Of a DNA stretch of 64,000 bases, positions 758 through 40,749 are shown one piece after another. Each line of letters begins with the position of its first letter. Position 1 is the stretch's first letter. The stretch lies in NCBI GenBank assembly GCA_014905825.1, contig JACGCN010000033.1, forward strand, positions 372,001-436,000, read 5' to 3'. The translations under genes and the position numbers were made by a program. The stretch is from Lyophyllum atratum (Eukaryota; Basidiomycota; Agaricomycetes; Agaricales; Lyophyllaceae). The notes below the pieces were generated by a model. That model saw only the letters and a program-made list of their open reading frames with translations, was not told the origin of the DNA and did no database searches.

Positions 758-3700
758 GGCGAGAAGGCGTCGGGGAAGATGACAAGGGAAGGAAAAGAAA
801 GGCAGGCAGTGGTAACCTACGGGTTGCCCTTATATGGATTTGATATTGCCTCGTGTAAAGAAGGCAGGGTAGCGTCTATGAGGTGGACCGATTCCGCGGC
901 ATCTTTCCCACTTCGATCACCATAAATCCGAAATCAATCTACTCGTGCGATCATGACCATTCACTGGTCAATATCAGTCAAGGCTGTCAAGCACCCAAGG
1001 ATTCGGCTGCGCTGAACATCGTCTGAGTCAACCAACGGGTGTATTGGTCTGCACGACTGTTGAAGATGGTTGCGCACTGTCTGCGCAGTCCTGCACGTCG
1101 CCGTCAGGTTTACGTTTCGTGCTCCCCCAAGCATTCATCTGTCGAACCTGAAGTGGCGTCGGAAAGCTATAAGATTGGACCCTGATACCGCTGATCCCCT
1201 GACGTGGTTGCGGCAAATGTGGAATTAAAACTGCAAGAGTCCGCTAGTAAGCGAGAGTGTTATCTCGAACGGAAAGCGTCAAAACGCTTTGTACCAAAAC
1301 ACAACGAAGATGAGCATGAAGAAGGGTAGTCCGCGGCCAATAATTCGAGTAAAATTCTTTGAAATTTCCAATCAATTACGGCTATTATTTGTCTTCCCCT
1401 AACTCCGATGGCGACTTGACCCTTACGCGTACGCCTTGTGTTCAAAACATGCCTTATGTTCCACGCCTACACACCCTTCTCTCTACTGAGCAAAATGGCG
1501 ACCTCTTCATCCTCTTGACAGTGATGACTAGGCGCTGGACCGGTCCGCCAAACGTAGCCATGCCCCTGGGAACCGGCAATACAGATATGTGGGGAAGACA
1601 AGGCGAGATTGAATCTTGGATCAATTGGGGACAATTATGAGTACGCCGATGAAGACGCGAGCTTGGTTCGGCCGCAGGCGGCCCCAATTTCATCACTTGC
1701 TCAGGAGTCTACTGAAGAGCATTCCTATTGACGTATCATGAACGACAACGTGACGGTGTACAACTTCCAGCATGGAACTCATCACCGACTCGTAGAACAC
1801 CACGCTCGGCCGAACTTCACACACGTATTTTTGGTCAACGCTCTGCCTCTACAGGAGTGTACAGGGCTTTTAGCACCTGTTCAATCCGCATTCCGATCCG
1901 CGTGTTGCTAATGAACTTCAGGCGTGTCCCAGTATTGAGGCCTGCAGACCTCAACCGAGGCATATATATTCCGCCTGGATTTATTGCCCTTCAGATCAAC
2001 CAACTCATTGGACCACGAGTCGGTATTACCATGGGGCTATGCCAACGGTAGATTGATTGTTGCAGCTGAGTTCTTCATGACGGACAATTGAGCTTACCAA
2101 AAATAGTGATGTGATGGTGCCCAGGCTGTGTACAGTGTACCTACTGTGTACGCAGGGTTGATCTTGGTCCTTACGGATCACCTAAGCGTCTATCTTTGCT
2201 GATTACAGAGCGTGATATCTGGGTTTCGAAGGAACACCCGAAGAGATTACAAGCCAAACTGTGGCGCACCCACCCCATGAGGAATCATCACTGTCACAAT
2301 ACACAGCCATGCGCGGCCTTCGAAGGCAATCTAAGCGCGTGGTACGACCCAGAACAGAAGCTTGAAGGAAATCGGACGTTTAAAACCTCACCGGCGCTCT
2401 GGATGATCTTCCCATGACACCGAATGTTCCGCGATGCGCAAGGACTCGTGGCCACGTCCATCGTTCGAAGAGGGTACCTTGACTCGACGACATCGCTGCG
2501 GATTAGCCCCCAATCTCACAAGTGACTCCGGGACCGACTGGATCTGCGATGACATTCCCGAACAAGCAGGAGGACCTTGGATTTCTGGTGACAAGATTGC
2601 GGAATCTCAGGCGCTTATCGAGTCATCCTCAGGGGCCAATCAGGGGTCCGAATACACCACACTCTAATTCGTGCTCCGGCGATATTTATGTTTTCGAAGC
2701 AACTTCGAAGACACTTCGAGCTTGGATGCGATTTCAGGGTGTTGCAGATTCACCCAAAGCAGAAAACGAACGCGGTTCCAGGACGCATCCGCTGCTTGCA
2801 GGTACGGATGTAACGCGGAATGATAGGGCATGAGCGGGTTAATTCATGAGGGTTAGATTTCCCCTTCGGTGAACAGCAAGTTGGGAATATAAGGTCAATT
2901 CAATAGGTAGGCGGTATGAGCAACCTGGTGAGAAGTATTAGCAGAGATGCGATACGAATACTAGAGCCTTACTTCTCGCGTGTCTTTCAATACATCACAG
3001 GGACCGAGCATCTCCGTCCTTAATCCTTCTGTTGGGTCTGATCCTGAAAGAAGGTGCAATCCGACCGCGTGTCTAGTTGGGTTGTTGTTGTAACGTTACA
3101 CTTGAGTCAGATGATAATCCAATAAAACCAGAGCGTCTGCAGTAATGCGGATCTATGAGTTAGCCTCGTGAGTTGTTGTCCTCTGTCGCTCTGTGTAGGG
3201 GGATGACCGCCTTCGAAAACAACGCGAGGCAGCCTTGGAAGGCGCACAAAGGGTAAACCAGGCCGCAAGGCGTAAACGATGTCGATAAGAAGGAAAACGA
3301 ATGTAATACAAGGACGGGTGGCGTACCTCGTGTGGTAGTGAGACACGAATATCGGACCGGACCGCTGCCTAGAAGCATAAAGCACTCCTACAAAAGGGTT
3401 CGCCACCCGAGTTAAGCGGCAGGTTCGACGGCGTGCAAGTCAACGATGGGAAGCGGAAAGGGTAACCAGAGTCCTCGCGGTCTAGGATAGCCCGGGTATA
3501 CATGAAATTAGGTGACGCGGCGAACGATTCGATACAGACGGCTAGGTACGACGCCTCCCAAGGACAGCAGGTCACGTACTCCAGAAAATTGAAGGGCATG
3601 GCGACTTTTGCAGATCCATGGCTTTTAACTAAGTATGGATCTCCAGGTAACAAGAGTAGCGTTCGCCCGAGCTCGATCCCCCCATGTCCGACCGGAAATC

Positions 3701-5687
3701 TCACGAGATCAGTTGAATCTTGAGTTCGTCTCAAGTCGGACTTGATCAGTGTTGGCATTCGTGAACAATCGGTCCGCCCAAGCAACGTCCCGGATCATGG
3801 AAATAAAGTGCAGCCTGCGAATGATTTTCGTGTCCTATGACCAGGTCGACAACTGTTAGACTCGGATACAGCGGTTGATATATAATCTGGGGCGAGCCGT
3901 CGCGCTCCTTTCGACAATTCGTCCGCGAGGCTGAAGGCGATTCAATGTAGATCACTCGGGTCACCGTCGTCCCACACAAGGTGTACCTCGTGTGAGAAAA
4001 CACTTCATTTGCCGGAATAACTCGGAATCTGTTTCGGAGGATTTACAACGCAGCGCTGGAACGCTGGAAGGAATCTGAAGTATGAGAGATTTGACAGAAA
4101 TGCGCAGGAAATAGGAATGCGGTGGGAGCTGACTGTGGGCCCGGCGTTAATTGGATCAGCACAGCCCATCAGATTCATAGACGCTGGTGTCGAGTCCGGC
4201 GGTAAAGACAGTAGAGCGAGGCGTTTAGAGCCTTAAATGCGAGTATCCAGACTACTGGGTACTTGTGGAGCGAGCGTCCGTATATGTCGTAGAGCGGAAT
4301 GTCTTCTTAGGAACGGTCAGTATCTGTGGACGCACATTTTGACCACGCGACTACAAGTGACCACGCGGCGATTTTGTCTGGACAGGTCGGGGTCGTTCTT
4401 GTCTGAAATGCATCATCTGGCCTTCCACTAAGAATAGCTCGAAAAAAGGAAATTTGCGGTCCGGGCTCTTCGGGCATCAAAAATCGCCTCAAAAACACTT
4501 CAGAACACCTACTGAGCGAGCGTAGACTCGAACCCAGTCGTCTTGATAGTAATCGCAATGTTTAATCTGAGGGAGTGAGCGCAATGCTGAATCTGATGAT
4601 GTTCTGTTTTTGGATTATGTGAAGGGGGTAATTACTATCAAGAAGACTGGTACGGAATAACCGTGATTGAGTACAGAGGAATTTTCGAGCCCCGACATTT
4701 TCCATAAAAGGTAGAATATCCGTCATGTGATTTCACGTGTGCTGATCCGTTGGACTTCCGACGTGCTTGAGGATGTGGTGGGGTTGACGAGCAGAAGCCG
4801 TGGTTAACACAGACCAACGTAGGAACAGAGCCAGCAGCTTCATAGGATGCACGACAAGTAGTCTGACTCTCACGGCAAACTAGAATGACACGGAGATTGA
4901 TACAAATTGCGCGCGGAAATCCTGCGCAAAGAGCTGTAATTAGTGTCTCTGTTGGTTCTGGAGTGTGACAGGAGTGCTTTCATCGGTACACGAGCGTTTT
5001 TGGGAGCTCATAAAGACCGTAAAGACAGGAACTCGTCTCAGTCAACGCGCTTGGTGGTGGGGGCACGGTCAGATCACGAATTAGGAAATTGTCGGACTTC
5101 GAAATTTCCTCTGTACTAATCTACGGTTATTCCCTCCCAGCCGTTATGGTAATGATTACACGCCCACAGTGTACCATATCCGTAACGGCTGGTGTCGAGC
5201 CTAGAGCGAGCGCTTTTTTGGTGGTTTCGAGTGCATTCTTGGTGCTTTCCAAACCACAAAAAATTCCAACTGCCCACCATTATCCCCAGTTTCGTACCAG
5301 CACCCAGCGATTTGTCCGAAAATGGATCTAGGTGTCCGTGCAAAAACACCCTCTGGGTCTGAAAATTGATCTGGCCTTCGAGGTCAGAATGTTCGATTCT
5401 TGTCTGAGACGGTATCTGGCCGTTGGTGAGATAATCCGGAGTCCTGTCCAGCCTCATATTACACAGGAAGAATGTCGTTCTATCGTTCCCAAGCGCTGCG
5501 GATCCATCCAATATAAATTCATTCGGCCACGACATCCACGTCCATCGAGATGAGTCATGTTGGGCTGGCTGGATTAAAAGGGTTGTACAGGTACATCAAG
5601 TCGTAAAGTCATCTATAGACCAAGTTAGCGGATTCGTTTCAGGCAGAGAGGGTTATGTCATGCCTAAGAATCTCGAGGGTGGAGCTG
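758..5687. other. Gene-empty stretch, probably decayed repeats
   Basis: I find no convincing gene in these 4.9 kb. Reading frames are short, lack signature motifs and do not join into a spliceable protein. Weak internal similarity exists: the text around 4390-4430 (TTCTTGTCTGA, then TCTGGCC) resembles 5395-5420, and the words CTGGTGTCGAG and AGAGCGAG recur near 4180-4220 and 5190-5210. This suggests diverged copies of an old repeat. No tRNA, array or long inverted repeat was seen. Confidence 0.4.
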
Positions 5688-6516
5688 CTAATCTCTTCGC
5701 AACAGCGACCCCAACTCCATCTCTTCCACCACCTCGTCGTCTTGGTGTATCGGAACAACATTCAAGCCTTCCGACATCTCCCTCTTCACGCATAGTTGCT
5801 CAGCCACGATGACGGTGAGGATGGACCCTGCGATCATGACAAGCCAGAAGAATCCTGAAGTCGGTATCGACGCGGAGTAATAGCTTGACAGAACAAGGTG
5901 GTTGAAGACCAGGGTCAATGCAAAGTCGAGGATGAGTCGTGGCCGACGGACGAGAGCATAGAGGTAATAGATGCTGTAAATTTGAATTCTAGTTTAGTGG
6001 TCATACCCATGTTAAATGAGCTGGAGCTTACTCTGCGGAGCACGCAATGAGCCAGCATAGCGCAATAATCCAACCGCGCATTGGATCTGCCTGCCCATCC
6101 CACCGGTCCTTCTGCCAGCCATACCCGACTTTCTTCCCTCCACTCCAAGCCCAAGAATATGCACCCCACTTGCCTTCTCCATGTATCCCCCGTACTGTCG
6201 GGCGACCTGCCATCTCGCGCCAATCCATAATCATGCCTATGGAAACGTCAACTCCGGGCAGGGCATGTTTGTCACATTAACCCACCAATGTTGGCCGCAC
6301 CTCCTTCATAGTTGAGTGACGTCGCCTCTGCGAAGAGACCAAGCAGCGGCGGAATTAATATCGATAGCGTTAGGTAGTGGAGCGTCTGTATTGATACGAT
6401 CTGCACGTTGGCCGTCAACCTCAACAGTACTTTCTGTCCCTGCCAATGAAAGGAATTTGAAATACCTGAGAAATGAGAAGGACAGGATCCCAATTCGTAT
6501 TCGCTTTCGGCGCCAT
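5688..6516 (-). CDS. SYS1: SYS1-family Golgi integral membrane protein
   Basis: Sys1 is a small four-span membrane protein of the late Golgi that recruits the Arf-like GTPase Arl3/ARFRP1 and supports vesicle tethering. Four exons can be joined: exon 1 at 6516-6466 (MAPKANTNWDPVLLISQ), an exon reading IVSIQTLHYLTLSILIPPLL, a middle exon with a hydrophilic Gly/Trp-rich loop (WREMAGRP, KKVGYGWQ) then WIIALCWLIACSAE, and a last exon with LILDFALTLVFNHLVLSSYY, SFPTS-like SIPTSGFFWLV and an acidic tail. The N-terminal WDP..LISQ and the FNHL..SSYYSASIPTS segment are typical of the family. The hydrophilic loop between spans 1 and 2 looks longer than in animal Sys1. The spliced length of about 215 residues fits. 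It is transcribed away from the peptidase gene, with 214 bp between the two starts. Confidence 0.88.
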
Positions 6517-6730
6517 GGCGTGGGCTAGGTCGTGTGGGGAGGGTTAGACAGCCGAATCACTGGCAGCTGCCATGCAAGTGGTGGTGGTGTTCAAGGAGAA
6601 CAACCATTCTAGGGTTAGGGTTTTCATGACAGTTACCAATTGAATACAGCCCTTCTTCGGAACAGATGCCATTGCGTTCGTGTCAACGGGACCCCCCTAA
6701 ACCCGTGCTAGGTTGATCCCAACTACGACG

Positions 6731-9700
6731 ATGCCCAGCTCACCGTACCAGAGGCTGCCGGAGGGCGTAGGCCAGAGCTCGTCGCCTGCGAGCTCGAGTC
6801 ACACTTCGGACGGCGCTCTTGAACCAGCCTTCGCGAAACCGGCTACGTACTACGGGGAAGGCCCATTCGATCCACCAAGTTCTGACGATGAAGATGACAA
6901 CGAGACGGAGTCGCTCTTGGAAAAGCATGCTGCGCCATCGAGTCCAGGACTCGCAGAGCTTGGGGACAGGTTTTCATCGGGCTCGGGGCAAGTGCACGAG
7001 ACCGACGATGCTGACTTGAAGGTTAGTTGAATCAACTACAACGGAATCATGGCTTCACGTATCTCGTCCTACGTGGGGTATAATAATTTCTGGCCTATAA
7101 TATGTTGCATGTGCAGTTACAAAGTTCTAACTTATACCTCCGTTTCTAGAAACGTTCATCTCTCCGCTTTTTCGCCATCCTGCTTGCAGCAGTCCTACTT
7201 CTATCTGCGGTCGTCGGAATTATTGCTGCACAGACATACAAAGGAACTCCACAGCATCGACCAGGCACCAGGAAATTCACCATGGATCATGTATTCAATG
7301 GAACTTTCAACGCGCAGAGGAAAACTATCAACTGGGTGGAAGAAGGTATATTCGGACTTTTATTCTCCCAACTTGATTGATAAAACTCCACTGTAGCTGG
7401 AGATGGTGTATATTCGGTTTTCGAGGCAGGCGACCTCAAGCTGGTGGATCTGAAGACTAACACTACAGAAGTACTAGTTTCTTCGAAGGATATCAAGGAT
7501 GTAAGCACGTCTCCAAGATCCCAAATACAACCAAACTTAACAGCGCCCCATAGCAAAAAGGAAACCTTCTCATGTGGTACGCTTGGGATCTGTCGCCAGA
7601 TATGAAATACATTCTTTTAAAAGCTGACTATCGCAAGGTACGTGCACGTATACAGGAAGCATTAAGGATCGGGTTTCTTACATTCTTTCAAAGCAATGGC
7701 GCTGGTCAAGTTTCGGGAACTACTACGTCCACAATATAGAAGCCAAGACAACTCATCCCCTTATACCCCCCACTCATCCATCTGCTACCTCTTATGCTAC
7801 TTGGGCGCCAACAGGGCAATCTATAGCATATGTCACAGACAACGACCTTTACGTGCTTACCAACCCTTCGTAAGTGATATTCCCCTCGCACACTGCTCGA
7901 CCAATGACCTCCATACCACAGAGCCACCCCAATCCGAGTCACCGCCTCCGGAAACGCTTCCCTCTTCCACGGTGTCCCCGATTGGGTCTACGAAGAAGAA
8001 ATCTTCTCCGCCGACTTCGCCCTCTGGTGGTCCCCCGACGCCAAAAAAGTCGCATTCCTCGTCTTCGACGAAACCGCCGTCGAAGAATACAACTTCCCCA
8101 TCTACAACCCCACGGCAGACAACAACGCCGTTATCCCCTATACCTCGGACATCGTCATGAAATACCCCAAGCCCGGCTACAACAACCCTCTCGTCTCAGT
8201 GCACGTATTCGATGTAGCCCGGCATGCTGAGGACGCGGGGACTGAGACAGACTTCGCTGCTGAGGAACATACGTATGAGTTGGAGTGGCCGCACCGCCAC
8301 GCGGCGAATGATAGTATCATTTCGCAGGTCAAGTGGGTGGGCGATGCGTCGCTGATCCTGAAGGAGGTCAACCGTAATGCGGATGATGGGAATGTGGTGT
8401 TGTTCAATTTGGACAATGCGGAGGAGCGTGCGCGGTCGCGTGGAAAGGTCGTTCGGAAGCTTGGGAAGAAGGGCGAGCAAGGAGATAATGGGTGGATCGA
8501 TCATGTAAGTCGGATTTCCATGGTTCGTAGGCATATGATGACCGGCGTGCTGACTCGTTTTTAGGATCAAAGCATCCACCGACTTCCTGCAAGCCTTACT
8601 CCCGGCGAGACTGATGCGTACCTTGACATCGTACCCACCCCGGAGGGCTACAACCACATTGCACTGTTCAGTCCCGCCAGCTCTGGGACCCCGCATTTCC
8701 TTACCAGTGGCAAGTGGGAGGTCACAAATGGGATCAAGGGCATCGATGTGAAGAGAGGCATGGTGTGAGTCTACTCTTGTTTCCCTTTGTAGCAAGGTTT
8801 AAGAGAGTATCGCAGGTATTTCGAGGCTGCGAACCCTTCTTCGATTGAACGTCACGTCTACTCGACACCTCTGCCAAAGGATGTCCCTTTCAAGGCCGTT
8901 GAGGCGATTGCCCTTACGGATGTGACGAAGCAGGCGTACTACTCGACAAGCTTTTCACCCGGCGCTGGATTCTACGTACTGGACTACCAAGGCCCTACCA
9001 TCCCCTGGCAGAAGATCATAGCTGTAGGCAACTCGAGTAAGCACCTGTTCAAGACGATTGCGCTCCCCACTTATGCCATCATCCATAGCGTTCGAACATA
9101 GTCTAACCAACAACGAATACCTGACCAATGTCACCATGGAATACGAAGCCCCCACTATCTCGCATTCCAAGATCATGAGCGATGGTTACGGTCTGTTTCT
9201 CATCCGTTCCGATGATTATCATCGAAGTAGCTGAAACAAGCGACTGTGATCCAGAGCTGAACGTGCAAGAGATCCGCCCACCCCGCATGGACGATTCTGG
9301 GCGCGTCAAGTACCCCGTCCTCTTTCGTGTGTGCGTAACGCTCTTCCTCCTCGGACCTGCAGTGGCGGGTTCAGTCGCGCGCCTGCCTATGCTGATACCG
9401 CATCTCGTTCTATCCCCGCATTAGCTACGGCGGCCCCCAGAGCCAATTGGTCGACCTCAAATTCACCCGAAATTGGCACGACTATCTCGCGTGTGGGTTG
9501 TCGTATATCGTCGTGACTGTCGATGGGCGAGGAACGGGATTCAAGGGCCGCCACCTCAGGAACCCCGTGAAAGACAATCTCGGATTCTACGAGACGATTG
9601 ACCAGATTAATGCCGCAAAGTGAGGGGTCATCTCGCGTTGTGATTGGCTCTGGCTGTGGGCCCAATACTGAACGACCCTGTGGCTAGGATCTGGGCAGCC

Positions 9701-29779: not shown

Positions 29780-31988
29780 TAGTCTAGTTCAACTTAAGCG
29801 TCGTTAGGTGAAGGGTTCCGTTCGGTTGAAACGGCCAAAAATTCCGATGGCGTGATCATCGGATCTGAGCACCGAACCACGTTTAAGCTCGCTAAGGCTG
29901 AGAAGAACAATCTCGGATGTCATCACATGAGCTCGACGCGTCGCGATACCCCAGCATTCTCATGGCTCACTGTCGAAGGACGGACGCGAATCCGGGGCAT
30001 CGTCGAAGAACTCATTCCACAATGGTCAAACGGCGGGCGGCCGCATCAGATCGACTCATGGGCACACACCCTCGAGAAGGTCCCTGTCTTGCTTATCTCT
30101 TCCACAGGTTCTGGGAAGACGGCCGCCTTCTATATACCAATCCTAATCATGCGGTATCTGTTACAGAATCCTGTTGATGGAATACCCAAGCCGCCCAAGC
30201 ATCCTGTTGCATTGGTAGTGACACCTCTTGTGGAGCTCGGGAATAGCCAAGTGCGCACACTCGATTTTTTGCCTCATGTACCTAGATCACTAACCTCACC
30301 TCTTCAGGCTCGAGAAATGGGGGAAATTGGGATGCGAGCTGTAGCTTTAAATGCAGAGAGTATTAGTAAAGCATTCGACGAGGGACGCAATCTGTACCGC
30401 GAGATTGCTGCATGCCATTGGTCAATTGTGCTCCTATCCGCCGAAAGGCTTACTTCGAAAGAATTTGACGCCGTCATTCGAAACGAAACATTTCAAGAAA
30501 ACGTCGCAGTCCTCGGCATCGACGAAGCGCATGTATTGGTCCCATGGAGCCTTGAATTCCGAACAGCATATCAGCAAATATTGCTTTTGCACAGACGGCT
30601 GCCAGACCATGTGGCCTTAGTGGTTGCAACCGCTACCCTGGCCCCAGGACCCGCCTACGACGCACTCTGCTCTGCACTCGACCTTCGCCCGGGCGCATTC
30701 CATTGCATTCGTCTGTCATGCGAACGCCCCAATGTTCGGACCGTGATACAAGAGCTCGGCCATTCGCTCAGTGGATATACATTCCCGGGGATTTGTTGGG
30801 TCTTTGTACCTGGGATGAAAGCGGTCGTATACTGCAGGACGCTGGAGCTCAGCTGGCGCGTTGCCGTCTACGGCTGGTCAATGTTCCCTCCAGGAGAAAC
30901 TCGACTGTTGCACGTTCGATTGTGGAACTCGATTACGTCCGCAACTTACAATCAACGAACCCTGGACAGATTTCGCCAAGAAGATACTACATCTATCATC
31001 ATAGCCAGCATCGCATTCGGGATGGGGATGAACCTTGTCAACATCAGGTACTCAATCAATCTTGGGATTCCTGAGGGCTGTGACGCGCTCGTACAGCAGA
31101 ATGGGCGCGCAGGCAGGGACTTAGTCAGCGACTCGTTTGGCATAACATATGTCGAGCCGACTGTGTATTCGACTGTCAAAGGTAGTGTGGAACCAGCCGA
31201 GGAGATAGAAGCGGAGAAGGTCGCGCTAGAAGAGGAGGGTGATGGAATACAATCCGACTCAGAGGTCCCGTCGAAAACGTCGAAGAAAAAAGTTGCCACC
31301 AAGCCAAGGACAAAACCACGCATTAAGAAGGCGAAAAAAGCGGCGGAGCTCTCTGTTATCTATGGGGTGAATGGTGGGCGTTCAATAGAAAAGAATCTCG
31401 CGCGCTTGTTGGGTGCTTCTGTTCTAGGCCAATGCATCGAGGCTGAGAAGAATGCCATTTATGGAAATCCTGGGAACTCGGTGGCTTTACGGTGCAAAGA
31501 AGCAGGACGCCCCCTGCCCTGCACATCGTGTGAGCCATTCTCACCGCCCATGACTCCCGGACCTACACCACCACCATCGCCACCACCACCGCCACCACCA
31601 CCGCCCTGTGATGCAACGCCGACAAACCCCAAGCCTTATGGTCCACCTCTTCCGCCTCCACTGAACCAAACCCACCGAGCACATGCGAAGGACAAGCTCA
31701 TGCAGTTCGCACGTCAACAATGGTCAGCGAAGCGTGGTGCTCGTTTTCTCTACATCCCATATACTGCCTATTGGCCATCCTCAGTCCTCAGCACCCTCCT
31801 CGACCGCTTTCATCTCTTTCGTTCTCGAGAACTTCTGCACGGTGCTCTCGCGGACTGGGAATTCTTAGCCGAGGACGGGATCAACCTGTTTCTTCTCATC
31901 GATTCGCTCAATCAACGCTATGATGGGAGAGTATGCAAGGCCAAGTTTTTGAAACAGAAGAAGGCCGCCACTACGAGGGAACGGAATA
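29780..31988 (+). mobile_element. Truncated inverted copy of the DUF6589/RecQ element (helicase end only)
   Basis: From TAGTCT at 29780 to ACGGAATA at 31988 the sequence matches the reverse complement of 35632-37840. The translated helicase frames agree residue for residue over about 710 codons, so the copy is recent. It carries the outer end, the 33 bp subterminal motif and the first three quarters of the helicase gene, then stops abruptly with no second end. The flanking 9 bp CTGTAGAAC is not found after the break. Confidence 0.88.
29793..29825 (+). repeat. Subterminal 33 bp motif, copy 1
   Basis: Begins CTTAAGCG 13 bases inside the end TAGTCT and ends with GGTGAAGGGTTCCGTTCGG. Identical to the motif at 37795-37827 (opposite strand). 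Confidence 0.85.
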
Positions 31989-32029
31989 GTAGCATGTGCA
32001 GCAGCATTGTGGTAGTCTCCAGTAGCTGA
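29927..32029 (+). pseudogene. Truncated RecQ-like helicase gene
   Basis: Same gene as 35147-37693 on the opposite strand. It starts at MSSTRRDTPAFSW and holds the Walker A GSGKT, DEAH box, GMGMNL and QQNGRAGRD motifs, the Cys cluster and the proline tract. Homology stops at 31988, just after the codons for ERN and before the second intron of the intact gene. The frame then runs through 24 bp of flank and the first 17 bp of the neighbouring element to a stop at 32029. The basic/Pro-rich C-terminus (about 125 residues) is missing. The core helicase domains are complete, so a truncated protein is conceivable, but a product from this copy is unproven. Confidence 0.8.
32004..32012. repeat. Target-site duplication, left (GCATTGTGG)
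   Basis: A perfect 9 bp direct repeat of 37841-37849, directly abutting TAGTCT at the left end of the element. Confidence 0.85.
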
Positions 32030-32078
32030 CCTAATATATCAGATGATAGTCGATCTGATTTTATAAGGTCTGCTCTTA

Positions 32079-32111
32079 CTTAGGCGCTGCTGGGTGAAGG
32101 GTTCCGTTCGG
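32079..32111 (+). repeat. Subterminal 33 bp motif, DUF6589 end
   Basis: Begins CTTAGGCG and ends with the same GGTGAAGGGTTCCGTTCGG core as the helicase-end copies; 28 of 33 positions agree. It lies 146 bp upstream of the DUF6589 ATG. Confidence 0.85.
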
Positions 32112-32256
32112 CGTTAAGCGCGGCTTTAAGTGAAGAAAAAGACAACATATGACGATGGTGTGATCTGTTATCTGCCAGATAAGATTAGAGATATCCGTAT
32201 TTGACTCTGCCATACACCGCGAACTTCTGGCTCAGAGTCCAATTTCTACAGGCACT

Positions 32257-35104
32257 ATGTCTACAGAAGCTCAAACACCAGGAAGACGTCGTACTCCTCG
32301 CTCAGATGCCCAAAAAATGAAAGACATTCTCAATGTAATGCGGGAGGCAGACTGGTCCATCTCGAAATTCCTCCATCATCTTTTCCGACTCGAGAACCGC
32401 GACGAGCAGCATCAACAAATGGTAGTTGGGATGATAAACGGCACGTCGAAGCCGCGGTTTGGAGAGATCCTCCAGCTTATCTACGAGAACGCCAAACGCG
32501 TCGACTACCGAAAAGGGGATAAGACAGCCACCAAGATTGTTATACAGAAGAAGTTCGCACCCGATCTTTGGCCCGAGGTTCTTCATCATGCGGAGCCTGC
32601 AATGAATGTATGGGCCGTGCGTTTGGTGGCTGATCTGGTCCGCAATGAGGGGAAAGTGATGGTTAAACCTGACACGGGCCTCCATTTGCGGGCATCGGCA
32701 AAACCAGAAATGGAGCGAACTCGAAACATTCAGGACAAATTGGCGTCGTGGGAGGCTGTGGATGGATTCAGTATGGAAAAGATGCAGGGCATAGCAGAGG
32801 AGAATGCACCTACACTGTGGCACATCGTGTCTTCCTACGTGAATCCAACATATGGGGATCGGGGTCAAGTTCTCGCAGTACGCGAAATACGCCGTCCCCA
32901 AAACCTGGTGTGTTTCGAGACATGGCATATGAGAGAAAAACTGATAAACGGATAAGGTTACCACAAGTGCCGTGATGTCACTGACCTTTGGGCGCTCCGA
33001 GCGCGCGAGCCTGTATGCGCTTTGTCGTGGAATTTGGTACTTTTCGACTAAAGCACATCGGTCCATCTTCCGGGTTGAAAGTCGGCTGGCACAGTGCGTG
33101 GCGTATTCGTCGGTATACCCTGCATTGAAAGCGATGTCAGAACAACAACTAAAAGACTTGAAAGCTGCACTGTTGCCTGGTTCGGGCCGTCATATACTCA
33201 CCGTGGGTGACAATGTTCAGACATTTGTAAAGCCACGCGACCACCGAATTGGGAGGGAAAGCAAAATGATTAAGGGTTATGCAGGGACGGCTGTCGAGAT
33301 GGAGGACTATGAGGAGGGTGCATTTGATCTTGATGAGCTTGTCCGACGGCAGTCTCTGCAACAGCGGCGAGATTTATCAGCAGAGGGGATAATGGAGGAC
33401 ATTGACTGGACGCACCAAGAGAATGTTGCTGCGGGTGATTTCACTGACACGCTGCTCGGTTTCGTACCTGTGTTGTCCGTCTACAAGAAGGATATGGAGG
33501 AGTGGGTCACGGCGATGCTCACGAAGAGGCAAATTCCCCAGACTCGAAAATCAACGATTACGCCGCTGGCAACCAACAATGCCGATGAGATGCATGTTCA
33601 GGGCTTGAAGCAGGGTCTACTGGATTTCTTCAGCGTTCAGATGGGGATCGACAAGGAGACACTACAGAACCGATGCTTCATCAAATCGGGGGACGGAAAG
33701 ACCTTCGATCAGCTACATAAGCTCAAGAAGTACTTGGCAGCGGAGGAGGGAGATTTCGAATCGTTCAGGTGGTTGGTTCCTCTTCTGGAGCTGTGGCACG
33801 CAAAGTGGACTGATCTGAGCCGTGTTGCGCGCACTCACTGGGGGAAGGACTCTCCGGATGACCCATCGACCCTCAGCTTTGCTGCAAGACTCGCCCAATG
33901 CCCAACGCCAAGTGACCTGCGGAAAGTTGACTTTTACGACGGTCAGCATATTGTCAATTTGACCCTTGATGCTCACCTTCTCAACATCTGGGAGGGACAC
34001 TTTCAAACCGACAATTTGGTCGATCACTTCGCGAACCTGAAGGACCGAGACCAACTTCCTTCATTCGAGGCCCTCATTGATGCCGCGCGCATGCTTGTCA
34101 AACGCCATGCGACTACCGATGCCTTCAGAAGAGCACATAAGCCAGAGGCAGACCACCCCGACACAGTCCCTCTGGGATCACCCTGGACTCGGCCATCGGC
34201 ACAAACAGAGACGGAGACGGTGGATGTTGAAATGGTGTCCGGGGAAGACGAAACGGACCATCTGTCAGACATGTCAGCGCCCGAGCCGGAATCATTTAGC
34301 GACGCGGACATTACCCTCGCTAATTCCATACTGTTCATTCGAAATGCAATCTGGTGGAGGGAGATGTGCAGGGCAGTCGCTCGTGGGGACACGGGTAGGA
34401 TCTGGGAGATTCTAAAGATCTGGATCTTTACATTTGCAGGGAGCGGAAATCCGTACTATTCGCAGTACCTGTTGGAGTTGTATTGCAACTTCAAGTGGGA
34501 GTTTCCACCGAAGCTGACAGACGCGATCTTGATGAACTGGGTGATCAATCTTCATGGGAAGCCAGGGATGTTCATCGAGATGGACCTGATGCAGGAACAT
34601 TTCAATTTCTGGCTGGAGGACATGGCGCAACACAAGGGCAAGGAATTCGACGAACCTTTTTATCGACAAGTCATCTCGATGAATGTACATCATTTCCTAC
34701 GGCTGAAAGATGAGATGGAGGCCGCGGTATTCCTGAAAGCGCGGTCAAAAGATCACGGAGCACGACATCTAAACAACGAACTGAAGGCCATCATGAAAGC
34801 CTTTCGAGCCGCAGAGGTGGACCGCCGTCGGCCCAGCCGTGACGAGGGGTTTCACGGAGTCGATGACCTGGGTGTCGGCCTCGAAACGCTCAAAAAGGAC
34901 AAGATCGAGAACTTTATTAAACGAACGACAGTGTTTACAGATATCCTAGGCCTCCGCGTTGATTCTACCAGTGGTATGGAGGACGACGTTATGGAAGACG
35001 AGGTGGAAGCGGATGATGAGCGGCCTGACGAGCGACATGGTCCTCCACCCCGCGTGTTCGTGGCAGGCAATGAACTGATCATCGAAGAGAGGGAGTCAGT
35101 ATAA
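32257..35104 (+). CDS. DUF6589-domain protein, candidate transposase of the element
   Basis: About 932 residues. Exon 1 is 32257-32907 and exon 2 is 32957-35104, with a 49 bp intron (GTGTGT donor, GATAAG acceptor) that keeps frame and restores RPQNL-VTTSAVMSLTFGRS. The N-terminal 220 residues look DNA-binding (QKMKDILNVMREADWSISKF). The DUF6589 part follows: LTVGDNVQTFVKPRDHRIGR (near 300), PLATNNADEMHVQGLKQGLL, KSGDGKTFDQLHKLKKYL (near 460), WLVPLLELWHAKWTDLSRVA (near 495), YYSQYLLELYCNF (near 720) and GMFIEMDLMQEHFNFWLEDM (near 760). An acidic segment ends the protein. The family is known mainly from basidiomycetes and has no assigned function that I know of. Recurrent D, D, E/D blocks make an RNase H-like nuclease plausible, but this is inference. 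It sits between the element's left motif and the helicase, so it belongs to the element. Confidence 0.85.
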
Positions 35105-35146
35105 TTGGGCATGTAAACCTATTTATGAATCCATACCTGGTACCAT

Positions 35147-37693
35147 TCACAACCGGCGCCGCTTCGGACTGGTAGTGTGCAGAGATCCATTATCAGAGGC
35201 GTGTTTTAAAACTTGGGCAGGTAGTGCAGGGTGCGAGCTAGACGAGGACATAATAGTCATTGAGGGTGCCGGTGGGTAGGGGAGCGCTGCGTAGTTAGGC
35301 CGCATAGGCATCCCAAAAGTTGAAGGGGCGGGGCCAGGATAAATCGGCGGATGCATGAACATAGGGATTGTCACAGGTGGGTCGTAGTAAGCGAAGTTGG
35401 GGCCCGTGAAAGAGGGGTGCGCGTGATGAATGCTTCCCGTCGATGAGCCGACAGCAGAATACAAACGAGTGGTAGAAGATGAAGGGACTGGCTGTTTGGG
35501 CGGTGCAGGCTGATTGACTGGCGGATGGATGTTCTCCTTGTTGCTCGCGGAGATCCTCTTTCTCGCCTCCTTGGCTGTATGCAACGTTAGGATGAAAATG
35601 TCGTGAAACAAAATTGATGCCTTACCGATCTTATTCCGTTCCCTCGTAGTGGCGGCCTTCTTCTGTTTCAAAAACTTGGCCTTGCATACTCTCCCATCAT
35701 AGCGTTGATTGAGCGAATCGATGAGAAGAAACAGGTTGATCCCGTCCTCGGCTAAGAATTCCCAGTCCGCGAGAGCACCGTGCAGAAGTTCTCGAGAACG
35801 AAAGAGATGAAAGCGGTCGAGGAGGGTGCTGAGGACTGAGGATGGCCAATAGGCAGTATATGGGATGTAGAGAAAACGAGCACCACGCTTCGCTGACCAT
35901 TGTTGACGTGCGAACTGCATGAGCTTGTCCTTCGCATGTGCTCGGTGGGTTTGGTTCAGTGGAGGCGGAAGAGGTGGACCATAAGGCTTGGGGTTTGTCG
36001 GCGTTGCATCACAGGGCGGTGGTGGTGGCGGTGGTGGTGGCGATGGTGGTGGTGTAGGTCCGGGAGTCATGGGCGGTGAGAATGGCTCACACGATGTGCA
36101 GGGCAGGGGGCGTCCTGCTTCTTTGCACCGTAAAGCCACCGAGTTCCCAGGATTTCCATAAATGGCATTCTTCTCAGCCTCGATGCATTGGCCTAGAACA
36201 GAAGCACCCAACAAGCGCGCGAGATTCTTTTCTATTGAACGCCCACCATTCACCCCATAGATAACAGAGAGCTCCGCCGCTTTTTTCGCCTTCTTAATGC
36301 GTGGTTTTGTCCTTGGCTTGGTGGCAACTTTTTTCTTCGACGTTTTCGACGGGACCTCTGAGTCGGATTGTATTCCATCACCCTCCTCTTCTAGCGCGAC
36401 CTTCTCCGCTTCTATCTCCTCGGCTGGTTCCACACTACCTTTGACAGTCGAATACACAGTCGGCTCGACATATGTTATGCCAAACGAGTCGCTGACTAAG
36501 TCCCTGCCTGCGCGCCCATTCTGCTGTACGAGCGCGTCACAGCCCTCAGGAATCCCAAGATTGATTGAGTACCTGATGTTGACAAGGTTCATCCCCATCC
36601 CGAATGCGATGCTGGCTATGATGATAGATGTAGTATCTTCTTGGCGAAATCTGTCCAGGGTTCGTTGATTGTAAGTTGCGGACGTAATCGAGTTCCACAA
36701 TCGAACGTGCAACAGTCGAGTTTCTCCTGGAGGGAACATTGACCAGCCGTAGACGGCAACGCGCCAGCTGAGCTCCAGCGTCCTGCAGTATACGACCGCT
36801 TTCATCCCAGGTACAAAGACCCAACAAATCCCCGGGAATGTATATCCACTGAGCGAATGGCCGAGCTCTTGTATCACGGTCCGAACATTGGGGCGTTCGC
36901 ATGACAGACGAATGCAATGGAATGCGCCCGGGCGAAGGTCGAGTGCAGAGCAGAGTGCGTCGTAGGCGGGTCCTGGGGCCAGGGTAGCGGTTGCAACCAC
37001 TAAGGCCACATGGTCTGGCAGCCGTCTGTGCAAAAGCAATATTTGCTGATATGCTGTTCGGAATTCAAGGCTCCATGGGACCAATACATGCGCTTCGTCG
37101 ATGCCGAGGACTGCGACGTTTTCTTGAAATGTTTCGTTTCGAATGACGGCGTCAAATTCTTTCGAAGTAAGCCTTTCGGCGGATAGGAGCACAATTGACC
37201 AATGGCATGCAGCAATCTCGCGGTACAGATTGCGTCCCTCGTCGAATGCTTTACTAATACTCTCTGCATTTAAAGCTACAGCTCGCATCCCAATTTCCCC
37301 CATTTCTCGAGCCTGAAGAGGTGAGGTTAGTGATCTAGGTACATGAGGCAAAAAATCGAGTGTGCGCACTTGGCTATTCCCGAGCTCCACAAGAGGTGTC
37401 ACTACCAATGCAACAGGATGCTTGGGCGGCTTGGGTATTCCATCAACAGGATTCTGTAACAGATACCGCATGATTAGGATTGGTATATAGAAGGCGGCCG
37501 TCTTCCCAGAACCTGTGGAAGAGATAAGCAAGACAGGGACCTTCTCGAGGGTGTGTGCCCATGAGTCGATCTGATGCGGCCGCCCGCCGTTTGACCATTG
37601 TGGAATGAGTTCTTCGACGATGCCCCGGATTCGCGTCCGTCCTTCGACAGTGAGCCATGAGAATGCTGGGGTATCGCGACGCGTCGAGCTCAT
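35147..37693 (-). CDS. RecQ-like DEAH helicase of the element (intact copy)
   Basis: Superfamily 2 DNA helicase, about 812 residues after removing two frame-preserving introns of 57 bp (before AREMGEIG) and 51 bp (after ERNKI), each with a CTAAC branch point. I start at the ATG 37693 (MSSTRRDTPAFSWL); the upstream frame opens only with GTG. Visible motifs: motif I STGSGKTAAFY, motif II GIDEAHVL, motif III ATATL, motif V ASIAFGMGMNLVN, motif VI QQNGRAGRD, and a RecQ-type Cys cluster spread over GQCIE, LRCKEAG and CTSC. A basic KKA-rich stretch, a run of about ten prolines and a Pro/Ser-rich tail ending SPKRRRL (possible nuclear signal) follow. There is no HRDC domain. It is convergent with the DUF6589 gene. 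A role in replicating or unwinding element DNA is inferred. Confidence 0.9.
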   Translation of the reverse strand: MSSTRRDTPAFSWLTVEGRTRIRGIVEELIPQWSNGGRPHQIDSWAHTLEKVPVLLISSTGSGKTAAFYIPILIMRYLLQNPVDGIPKPPKHPVALVVTPLVELGNSQVRTLDFLPHVPRSLTSPLQAREMGEIGMRAVALNAESISKAFDEGRNLYREIAACHWSIVLLSAERLTSKEFDAVIRNETFQENVAVLGIDEAHVLVPWSLEFRTAYQQILLLHRRLPDHVALVVATATLAPGPAYDALCSALDLRPGAFHCIRLSCERPNVRTVIQELGHSLSGYTFPGICWVFVPGMKAVVYCRTLELSWRVAVYGWSMFPPGETRLLHVRLWNSITSATYNQRTLDRFRQEDTTSIIIASIAFGMGMNLVNIRYSINLGIPEGCDALVQQNGRAGRDLVSDSFGITYVEPTVYSTVKGSVEPAEEIEAEKVALEEEGDGIQSDSEVPSKTSKKKVATKPRTKPRIKKAKKAAELSVIYGVNGGRSIEKNLARLLGASVLGQCIEAEKNAIYGNPGNSVALRCKEAGRPLPCTSCEPFSPPMTPGPTPPPSPPPPPPPPPCDATPTNPKPYGPPLPPPLNQTHRAHAKDKLMQFARQQWSAKRGARFLYIPYTAYWPSSVLSTLLDRFHLFRSRELLHGALADWEFLAEDGINLFLLIDSLNQRYDGRVCKAKFLKQKKAATTRERNKIGKASILFHDIFILTLHTAKEARKRISASNKENIHPPVNQPAPPKQPVPSSSTTRLYSAVGSSTGSIHHAHPSFTGPNFAYYDPPVTIPMFMHPPIYPGPAPSTFGMPMRPNYAALPYPPAPSMTIMSSSSSHPALPAQVLKHASDNGSLHTTSPKRRRL

Positions 37694-37841
37694 GTGATGA
37701 CATCCGAGATTGTTCTTCTCAGCCTTAGCGAGCTTAAACGTGGTTCGGTGCTCAGATCCGATGATCACGCCATCGGAATTTTTGGCCGTTTCAACCGAAC
37801 GGAACCCTTCACCTAACGACGCTTAAGTTGAACTAGACTAG
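35632..37841 (-). repeat. Right arm of the 2,210 bp inverted repeat
   Basis: Reverse complement of 29779-31988. The inner border (TATTCCGT at 35632-35639) falls next to the second helicase intron, not at any element end. Confidence 0.9.
37795..37827 (-). repeat. Subterminal 33 bp motif, helicase end
   Basis: Minus-strand copy, identical to 29793-29825, starting 13 bases inside the right end and lying just upstream of the helicase gene. Confidence 0.85.
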
Positions 37842-37849
37842 CATTGTGG
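37841..37849. repeat. Target-site duplication, right (GCATTGTGG)
   Basis: Exact direct repeat of 32004-32012, adjoining AGACTA at the right end of the element; 230 bp from the ABP1 start codon. Confidence 0.85.
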
Positions 37850-38079: not shown

Positions 38080-40749
38080 ATGTCTCTTCATGTCAATCTC
38101 TCGAGCAGAGAGATCAATGACGCTTATCAAAACGTTGTCAATGCGAATGGGATAGACTGGGCTATCTTCACTTATGAGAAAGGAACCAACGATTTGAAAG
38201 TTCAGGCAACTGGCGATGGCGGTCTTGAAGAACTGGAGGAAGAGTTCTCCGATGGCAGGTTAGTCTGCAATCGCATCTATTCTGCGATGGGCTGATTTTA
38301 AACTCATAATACCAGAATTCAGTATGCATTCGTTAGGGTTCAGGATCCCAATGTTCGTTCTTATTGGATCACCCCTACTACCTCCTTTAACCCATCATAT
38401 ATGACAGAGCCAACTGCCCAAGTTTGTTCAGATAAATTGGTGTGGTGATGGTGTACCGGAATCGAAGAAGGGACTCTTCCACACGCATTCAAGCGCAGTG
38501 GCTAACTTCCTACGCGTGGCCCATATTGCAATCAATGCAAGAAATGAGGTTTGTCTGAATCCACACCACATTCCGACCTGCCGATCTCACTAGTCTTCAA
38601 TCAGAGCGACGTCTCGCCAGCGCTAATCATGTCTCGTGTAGAAGCTGCTTCAGGCGCTAAGTATTCGACGCACAAGGAGCAAGCGCGCAAGGCCGAGCCT
38701 ATCGCTCCTGTAGGCACAAACTACGTTCCCATCGGTAAGGTCGACATTGGCGAGCTCAGGAAGGCTCCAACGCCCGCAGCCAAGCCATCTGTTTCCACTC
38801 CAACTTCCCGTCCGGCATTTAGTGCTGCGAAACCTGCAGCATCTGCTGGATCGCTCTATGGACGAACTGTGATCGGCGGTTCGGCGCCGAAAGACGCTTG
38901 GCCTGAAGAGAAAGCTGCTCCTGCTGCTGCTACGCCACCTCCTCCGCCACCTACCGCAGCACGTCCTCCAGTGCTCCCAACCGCCTCTCGCCCTGCTTTC
39001 AGTGCAGTAAGTTACAAGTTTCCGAGATAGCCTGTTCGCTCTCTGATTATCCGACAATAGCGTGCTGCCTCTCCTGTGTCTACAGCTGCCCCCATAACTC
39101 CTTCGCGTACGCCGGTAGCCGCTTCTCCTGTTCCTACCAAGCCTGTCGAAGAAGATAGAATCGCACCTGTCGGAACCTCCTACACTCCAGTTTCCCTCCC
39201 CGCACCGAAGAAGTTGAAGAACCCTTTCGCAGCAATGCAACAACAGCAACAGCAAGCACCCGCTTCCCCCGCCCCAGCCGGAGGCGCCAAGAAGTTGACA
39301 TGGAGCGAGCGGCAGGCGCTGGCCAAGCAGCAAGCTGAAGAAGAGGCGGCTCGCAGCCGTGGTGCCGGGTTTGTCCCCCCTCCCGCTGCCGCCAAGTCAA
39401 CCTTTACTTCGAGCGCACCTGCTTTCGGAAGGGCTACGGCTCCTCAGAGTGCGCCTAGAAACTTTGGGGCTGTCGGGGCTGCAGCAGGCGTGGGCGCGGC
39501 AGTTGGTGCAACGGCTGCTGTGGCTACGCGATCCTCTGATTCGTATATTGGTGCTCGGGATGCTGGGTATGCTAGTGCCCGTGCTGCTGTGCAGGAGGCT
39601 GCTTGGGGAGAGGACGAGCCGGAGGAGGAAGAGGAGCCTGCTCCTGTAAGTGTAATTTTGTCTCTGGCATGTTCAACGCTCACGTATTTCTGTTAGTTCC
39701 TGCCAGCACCTGTATCTGCTCCATCTCCGCCTCCGCCGCCGCCGCCACCACCACCACCTCCGCGTCCACAGGAGCCGGAGCCAGAGCCAGAGTGGGAACC
39801 AGAACCCGAGCCAGAGCCAGAAGTGGCTGCACCTCCACCTCCTCCCCCTCCTCCCCCTCCGCCTCCACCGCCACCTCCAGCCGTAGCCGTAGCAGCTCCA
39901 GAGCCCGAACCGACACCTGTACACGAGGCCATCGAAGGCGTCACTGCGGTCGTGGTGTATGATTATGAGGTAACATCTGACCGTATCTGTCCTGCTGTGC
40001 ACCGGAAACTTATCGGGCAACCCTTCAGGCTGAGGAGGATAATGAGATGAGTCTTGCTGTAGGAGAAACTATCGGGTCTATTGAAGAAGTTGGGGACGGA
40101 TGGTGGAGTGGTGTTGGGCCTGGAGGGAAGACAGGGCTGTTCCCTTGTACGTCTCTTTGGGTTGTGGCTTGTTGCGGTGGTGGACTGATATCCTTTTTTT
40201 TGTTAGCCAATTATGTCGAACTCGTCGAGCAGGAGGAAGCGGCCCCTGAGGAGCCTGAGCCGGAGCCTGCAGCTGCTCCTCCGCCGCCACCCCCGCCTCC
40301 ACCACCACCACCTCCACCACCTCCACCGCCTGCGCCAGCAGCGCCTGCTGTATGTTTATTCCCTAACCCTGTGTATAGCTAGATAAACTCATCCGTATCT
40401 ACAGCGGCCCGCGACGCCTCCTCCCCCGACGCCTCCCGCAGCCGACGAGGGGATCACTGCTATCGCGTTATACGAGTACGTGATTATCGTTACTACCCAG
40501 CCGCCAATATGTTCTAACTTGTATGCGCGTACAGCTATGAGGCAGCAGAGGACAACGAGATTTCGTTTGCGGAAGGAGATAGGGTCACGGAGATTGAACC
40601 TGCTTCGGAGGAGTGGTGGCAGGGGAAGAATAAGGACGGGCATGTTGGGCTGTTCCCTGGTGAGTTCTTTTTCTTTGCTATTGTATTTTGGTGTTGAGGA
40701 GGCTGATGTGGTTGCTTCTTTAGCGAATTATGTGGAGGTTCAGGAATAA
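38080..40749 (+). CDS. ABP1: Actin-binding protein Abp1/drebrin-like: ADF-H domain and two SH3 domains
   Basis: Abp1 links cortical actin patches to endocytic machinery and Arp2/3. It starts MSLHVNLSSREINDAYQNVV at 38080. The N-terminal ADF-homology domain shows DWAIFTYEKGTNDLKVQATG, FVRVQDPN, QINWCGDGVPESKKGLF and SAVANFLRVAHIAINARNE. A long Ala/Pro/Ser linker contains two copies of an IAPVGT-Y-PV/I motif and a basic-acidic helix WSERQALAKQQAEEEAARS. Acidic Glu/Pro stretches alternate with proline runs of 12 to 18 residues, possible profilin or SH3 ligands. Two C-terminal SH3 domains follow: VVYDYEAEEDNEMSLAVGE, then GWWSGVGPGGKTGLFPSNYV, and ALYDYEAAEDNEISFAEGD, then WWQGKNKDGHVGLFPANYVE. 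About ten introns are needed. Two SH3 copies, against one in budding yeast, is common in basidiomycetes as far as I recall. Confidence 0.94.

Follow-up and report, generated by a model that had tools for sequence, protein, structure and literature searches.

A 64,000-nucleotide stretch of the genome of the basidiomycete Lyophyllum atratum (assembly GCA_014905825.1, contig JACGCN010000033.1, positions 372,001 to 436,000), referred to below as the window, carries a genuine, recently inserted two-gene DNA transposon of 5,828 bp that most likely belongs to the AcademH lineage and in which a protein of the DUF6589 family is the probable transposase. The unit is not a chance arrangement, because the same ends recur elsewhere in the assembly with other exact 9-bp duplications and because a second copy of the locus is empty. 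DUF6589 is named in Pfam as a family of unknown function, and if its genes encode transposases, annotations of fungal genomes probably list them among the host genes. The most surprising part of the analysis, and the part that is new here, is a set of solo insertions of the element's left-end hairpin. The assembly searched comprises 64.76 Mb in 151 contigs, and numbers such as C75 and C97 denote contigs of that assembly.

Structure of the element

32004..32012, no strand: left copy of the 9-bp target site duplication GCATTGTGG (from sequence)
32013..37840, no strand: transposon, 5,828 bp, TAGTCT ... AGACTA (from its terminal sequences; not present on homologous contig C75)
32093..32111, + strand: left copy of the 19-bp subterminal inverted repeat GGTGAAGGGTTCCGTTCGG (exact match)
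32257..35104, + strand: DUF6589 gene, probable transposase of 932 amino acids (aa), two-exon model 32257-32907 + 32957-35104 with predicted exon joining
35147..37693, - strand: RecQ-like superfamily-2 helicase gene, open frame of 848 aa with PF00270 and PF00271, possibly with one short intron
37795..37813, - strand: right copy of the 19-bp subterminal inverted repeat (exact match)
37841..37849, no strand: right copy of the 9-bp target site duplication GCATTGTGG (from sequence)

A first-pass annotation of the window had described a 5,828-bp unit with TAGTCT ends and an exactly abutting 9-bp duplication, and this description holds at 32013-37840, where GCATTGTGG is found on both sides. Over the whole window this word occurs exactly twice on the forward strand and not at all on the reverse strand. 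The common motif that had been seen near each end is an exact 19-bp repeat, GGTGAAGGGTTCCGTTCGG, one copy of which lies 81-99 bp inside the left end and an inverted one 28-46 bp inside the right end.

The DUF6589 open reading frame (ORF) at 32975-35104 (+) encodes 709 aa, ends in a stop at 35104 and matches the Pfam family with an E-value of 4e-128. A 49-bp intron would join a first exon (32257-32907) in frame to position 32957, and the predicted splice restores the sequence VTTSAVMSL, which is also present in the copy on C97. The helicase matches PF00270 (E 5.5e-14) and PF00271 (E 1.5e-8), together with the recQ_fam profile at an E-value of 5e-24 that nevertheless lies below the profile's curated cut-off; its closest solved structures by sequence are the RecQ, WRN, RECQ5 and BLM helicases. 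The two ORFs are convergent with 42 bp between them, in agreement with the near-touching arrangement first described.

This linkage is not confined to the window. DUF6589 was detected at 21 places in the assembly (40 matches before exon pieces were merged), some of which are allelic or duplicated (C73/C116, 99.9% identical; C68/C130, 94.6%), and the number of independent loci is therefore smaller than 21. A helicase of the window type lies near at least 15 of the 21, the helicase matches listed giving a lower bound. The pairs are convergent in nine cases (C79, C97, C24, C78, C57 at 67 kb, C108, C74, C73 and C116) and divergent in six (C13, C64, C76 at a distance of 9.5 kb, two on C75, and C57 at 326 kb), such that the expectation that the two genes would be convergent neighbours elsewhere is borne out for their proximity and only in part for their orientation.

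Empty allele and age of the insertion

29780..31988, - strand: truncated inverted copy comprising 2,209 bp from the helicase side of the element (2,209/2,209 identical to the full element)
31989..32003, no strand: 15-bp remnant or filler between the truncated copy and the target duplication (from sequence)

Sequence 91% identical to the right flank of the element is present on contig C75, which in a 15-kb comparison runs continuously from left to right flank without the element (90.5% identity on the left; 91.1%, and further out 87.5%, on the right). At the junction C75 reads GTAGAAC, then 26 bp, then GTAGCATGTGGTATGG, whereas the order in the window is GTAGAAC, the truncated inverted copy, GTAGCATGTGCAGCA, GCATTGTGG, the element, GCATTGTGG and TATGG. 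The 26 bp of the C75 allele are missing at the truncated copy, the outer end of which is an exact element terminus and the inner end an internal break. An empty site had been proposed as a check on the element, and one is provided by C75 of the same assembly, although its target word, GCATGTGG, is one base off GCATTGTGG, and CAGCA ahead of the word is found only in the window. The target word may hold an earlier footprint, or else filler. The stretch at 31989-32012, GTAGCATGTGCAGCAGCATTGTGG, resembles a duplicated and altered form of GTAGCATGTGG in the other allele, possibly an older excision footprint.

Most simply, the full element and the truncated copy would both have arrived after the two haplotypes split. 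The two insertion events are considered young relative to the haplotypes because the copies are 100% identical whereas the haplotypes diverge by ∼9%; such relative dating is possible because the assembly holds the occupied and the empty allele side by side, and the recent movement first proposed is supported in this relative sense. C79 and C75 appear to be two ∼90% identical haplotypes that were both assembled, in keeping with a dikaryon or a heterozygous diploid. A simple fold-back read, as one form of assembly artefact, does not explain the truncated copy, since at its outer end the copy adjoins flanking sequence shared with the other haplotype. A host gene pair or a segmental duplication is ruled out by the sharp ends, the duplications and the empty allele.

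Other copies in the assembly

A DNA search of the assembly with the element gave at least 53 matches, and 17 regions around copies were examined together with the copy on C74 and with three regions covering the window locus and its allele. Further copies with the same ends and a 9-bp duplication had been called for as a check, and, anchored on the left end, an exact 9-bp duplication abuts AGACTA on C88 (761 bp), C69 (617 bp), C99 (858 bp), C103 (716 bp), C97 (5,723 bp) and C119 (906 bp). The 6,223-bp copy on C74 is flanked by CCGCAAACC on both sides, with GGACTA as its right end instead of AGACTA, and in the 5,152-bp copy on C117 eight of the nine duplication positions agree. C97 and C74 are diverged two-gene copies with exact 9-bp duplications; the C74 helicase is ∼34% identical to that of the window, while the C97 copy (2110-7832 of the extracted region) holds stop codons in its DUF6589 and helicase stretches, which may be introns or damage.

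Among six longer copies tested for an uninterrupted counterpart in the assembly, one was found for C88 (99%), C69 (99%) and C117 (89%) and none for C99, C103 and C119. When the flanks of C97 and C74 were joined with one copy of the duplication, uninterrupted matches at 95-98% were obtained on C86, C81 and C61 from query position 104/107 onwards and on C24 over all 600; these are probably paralogous repeats. The C81 copy has lost its left end and shows no duplication in the stretch read, and on C24 the 9-bp word is repeated 592 bp further along, where the right terminus is lacking.

In the divergent arrangement, the similarity between two copies on C75 and one on C57 breaks off at a shared base (position 3612 of the stretch compared, if two bases are put down to chance), beyond which the flanks are unrelated. 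At C57:316889 a predicted left duplication, ATTATTACG, is followed by TAG and would imply an element of 11,831 bp; seven ATTATTACG-TAG words occur in the assembly, four of them forward. At C75:658234-670430, two DUF6589/helicase copies of the divergent type form an inverted pair; they show no difference over the 3,612 bp compared, and their outer flanks are unlike. It is a second inverted pair, like the full and truncated copies of the window.

DUF6589 as candidate transposase

DUF6589 is most likely the transposase of the element, judging from residue conservation and gene linkage. Three motifs each hold an acidic residue that is conserved across the copies of this genome: an aspartate in the motif DN (6/6 rows that reach the position), a second in (G/N)D (16/16) and a glutamate in DLxxExxN (12/12). 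The resulting D-D-E-like triad candidates are D302, D463 and E764 of the 932-aa model, equivalent to D79, D240 and E541 of the 709-aa ORF. A D-D-E order with a long insertion ahead of the last acid fits several D-D-E transposases. Between the window and C97, mismatches at codon positions 1/2/3 number 115/82/206 for the transposase (328 codons) and 102/72/202 for the helicase (303 codons). Mismatches thus concentrate at third positions in both genes, a purifying-selection pattern, and both proteins appear to have been maintained. The link to transposition that had been drawn for DUF6589 at the outset is further supported by the helicase neighbour at 15 of its 21 loci.

It is proposed that DUF6589 would act as a DDD/E transposase binding both the TAGTCT termini and the 19-bp subterminal repeats, and that it would excise the element and insert it into target DNA with a stagger of 9 bp, giving the 9-bp duplications. 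The RecQ-like helicase may open the DNA duplex while ends are processed, strands transferred or the DNA repaired. Cut-and-paste movement rather than copying is the presumed route. Alternatively, DUF6589 and the helicase could be passengers moved by another transposase, a view that gains from DUF6589 catalysis being deduced and from single-sequence AlphaFold modelling having given no fold. This is very unlikely, given that the longest further ORF listed in the unit (with both genes, including DUF6589 exon 1, set aside) is 254 aa and antisense to DUF6589, that both genes show the purifying-selection pattern, and that the pair persists in families with helicases as distant as that of C74 and in two gene orders. 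No useful relatives of DUF6589 were obtained from viral contigs, prokaryote genomes or phages.

Relationship to AcademH and other known systems

The element is most likely an autonomous DNA transposon of the AcademH type with DUF6589 as its DDD/E transposase, the AcademH assignment being made from published descriptions. AcademH is reportedly a lineage of the Academ superfamily presented by Kojima in 2020 (in Mobile DNA 11:15) and is said to occur in animals and fungi. Exact 9-bp duplications flank the copies in the window and on C88, C69, C99, C103, C97, C119 and C74, and the window helicase carries both PF00270 and PF00271. In the parts of the literature consulted, AcademH is characterized by duplications of 9 or 10 bp and an encoded helicase (PMC10045372) and has been found in Basidiomycota, Ascomycota and Mucoromycota (PMC10799480), a description that the window element resembles as a helicase-bearing fungal DNA transposon. 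Fungal Academ copies have been reported with PF00270 (DEAD/DEAH) and recQ_fam domains, as in the window element, although the passages on them that were consulted do not mention DUF6589 (PMC6416283). In the basidiomycete Marasmius oreades, putatively non-autonomous elements of the Academ type have been called widespread (PMC8290104), and Academ is merely mentioned in the consulted parts of PMC12210899 and PMC12411881. The first-pass annotation knew of no described superfamily with this gene pair; the view that none exists is probably wrong given the descriptions of AcademH and fungal Academ (PMC10045372, PMC10799480, PMC6416283); the pair is less novel than was thought and its kind has probably been described already.

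Several results weigh against the assignment to AcademH with DUF6589 as transposase. Near six of the 21 DUF6589 loci (C87, C95, C20, C68, C130 and C71) there is no helicase among the matches listed, no duplication was found in the stretches read at C90, C141 and C60 (780 kb), and the duplication predicted for one divergent locus, on C75 (658-670 kb), was not found there. The AlphaFold model of DUF6589 from a single sequence had a mean pLDDT (predicted local distance difference test) of 36, with no RNase H fold obtained, and a DUF6589 profile found nothing credible among solved structures (best E 0.24). Academ transposases, finally, were compared by description only.

The pair could also represent a different or new superfamily, with DUF6589 a DDE transposase non-homologous to that of Academ and the likeness to AcademH convergent. 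The likeness does rest on descriptions, and the name DUF6589 was not found in the 5.39 million papers searched; PF20231 occurs in four papers, all on subjects other than transposons to judge by their titles (steel sintering, pig gut bacteria, nanophotonics, infant gut fungi). A new superfamily is nonetheless improbable, since the duplication length and the RecQ-type accessory helicase fit the published descriptions, as far as these were consulted (PMC10045372, PMC10799480, PMC6416283).

Other helicase-bearing or 9-bp-duplicating systems were considered. Mutator-like elements (MULEs) generate a 9-bp target duplication, and were rejected on finding no MULE transposase Pfam match in either protein. 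Helitrons are not known to make a target duplication and encode a Rep/HUH-helicase protein with an HUH nuclease; they were rejected because 9-bp duplications are present here and neither protein contains a Helitron domain. KolobokH, according to the portion of the report consulted, is a fungal DDD/E lineage that like the window element carries a RecQ helicase, but Kolobok duplications are the 4-bp TTAA (PMC9587614). The duplications observed here are 9 bp long and of varied sequence, which refutes a KolobokH identity and reduces its likelihood to practically nil.

Left-end hairpin and solo left ends

32024..32074, + strand: left-end hairpin (from folding and the recurrence of TAGTCTCC ahead of the core CAGATGATAGTCGATCTG)

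Both this hairpin and the truncated inverted copy at 29780-31988 had been missed in the first-pass annotation. Folded as DNA, the 63-nt stretch has a free energy of -11.9 kcal/mol (z -4.5), and none of 200 shuffles was as stable. With RNA parameters and simple shuffles, left ends gave z-scores of -4.3 (C97 family) and -6.6 (C103 family) but of -0.9 in C74, and the three right ends examined in the same way gave z 0.2 to 0.8. The pattern TAGTCTCC-N(12-24)-CAGATGATAGTCGATCTG occurs 32 times in the assembly, against none for a reversed-pattern control.

Of these 32 hairpin ends, 25 were classified, as 13 longer copies and 12 solos, and C113 holds an additional solo with a variant core. The other seven hairpin ends lie at C2:436541, C60:241485, C61:910191, C62:639652, C83:221546, C87:318410 and C144:40824. 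The longer copies include C76 (570 kb), where C97-like sequence continues past the hairpin in the 101 bp read. The 13 solos represent 12 independent loci, with C60 (409 kb) allelic to C89 and the solo present in both; one solo lies at 1527-1579 of extracted region L052. At 11 of the 12 loci a duplication follows directly after 46-53 bp of the element, with the breakpoint within the 3′ arm of the hairpin and no right-end sequence in between. Eight of these duplications are exact (C89, C1, C75, C113, C57, C70 and two on C86) and three have one mismatch (C13, C90 and C119), while no duplication was found for the C108 solo, so that its limit is undefined. By our own arithmetic, an exact 9-bp word in the ∼30 offsets scanned is expected by chance in about 1 in 10,000 per locus. 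The solos resemble the left ends of at least three element families and therefore are not one amplified sequence. Among three solos tested for alleles, that at C75:2053926 has an uninterrupted empty allele at C79:574774-575266 (98%), and no allele was recovered for those on C1 and C113.

The structure of the solo ends suggests hairpin-dependent one-ended insertion or excision scars, with mini-elements moved in trans a further possibility. Scars, formed when the element was excised or lost from one sister and the gap closed with only the left hairpin kept or copied back, have about an even chance of being the explanation. They require no one-ended transposition, and the variable breakpoints (46-53 bp), the single mismatch at three of 12 loci and the lack of a duplication at one are such as end joining can give; gap repair should, on the other hand, leave variable right remnants, whereas 11 solos have no right-end sequence, and the allele of one of the three solos tested is empty rather than full (the other two gave none), while the C89 solo is in both alleles.

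More tentatively, and with a lower likelihood than scars, the hairpin may be a stop signal, such that a helicase-assisted reaction starting at the TAGTCT end halts in the 3′ arm and inserts ∼46-53 bp with a 9-bp duplication. Were this so, solos should be about as common as longer copies, matching the counts obtained here (12 vs. 13 among the 25 hairpin ends classified). Helitrons encode a helicase. In Helraiser, according to the part of the report consulted, a terminal hairpin acts as a terminator that affects where the moved segment ends (PMC4778049). The likeness of the window element to Helitron/Helraiser in having a terminal hairpin and an encoded helicase is one of analogy only, as the window element, unlike Helitrons, has 9-bp duplications and no Helitron domain. 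On the stop-signal reading, with the same modest likelihood, a DDE transposon would insert by one end and be terminated by a structure, the hairpin having a function like that of a Helitron terminator. Among the 20 of 137 papers listed in a literature search on solo terminal inverted repeats with hairpins and the 20 of 234 listed in one on Academ with hairpins and basidiomycetes, no title concerned such solo ends, which does not establish their absence from print. The solo hairpins make testable both the role of a helicase for a DDE transposon and whether a hairpin can end the transferred segment.

Neighbouring host gene

38080..40694, + strand: host gene with cofilin/ADF and SH3 domain matches, the ABP1 of the first-pass annotation (from domain matches; limits approximate)

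The right end of the element is located ∼230 bp upstream of this cofilin/ADF-SH3 gene.

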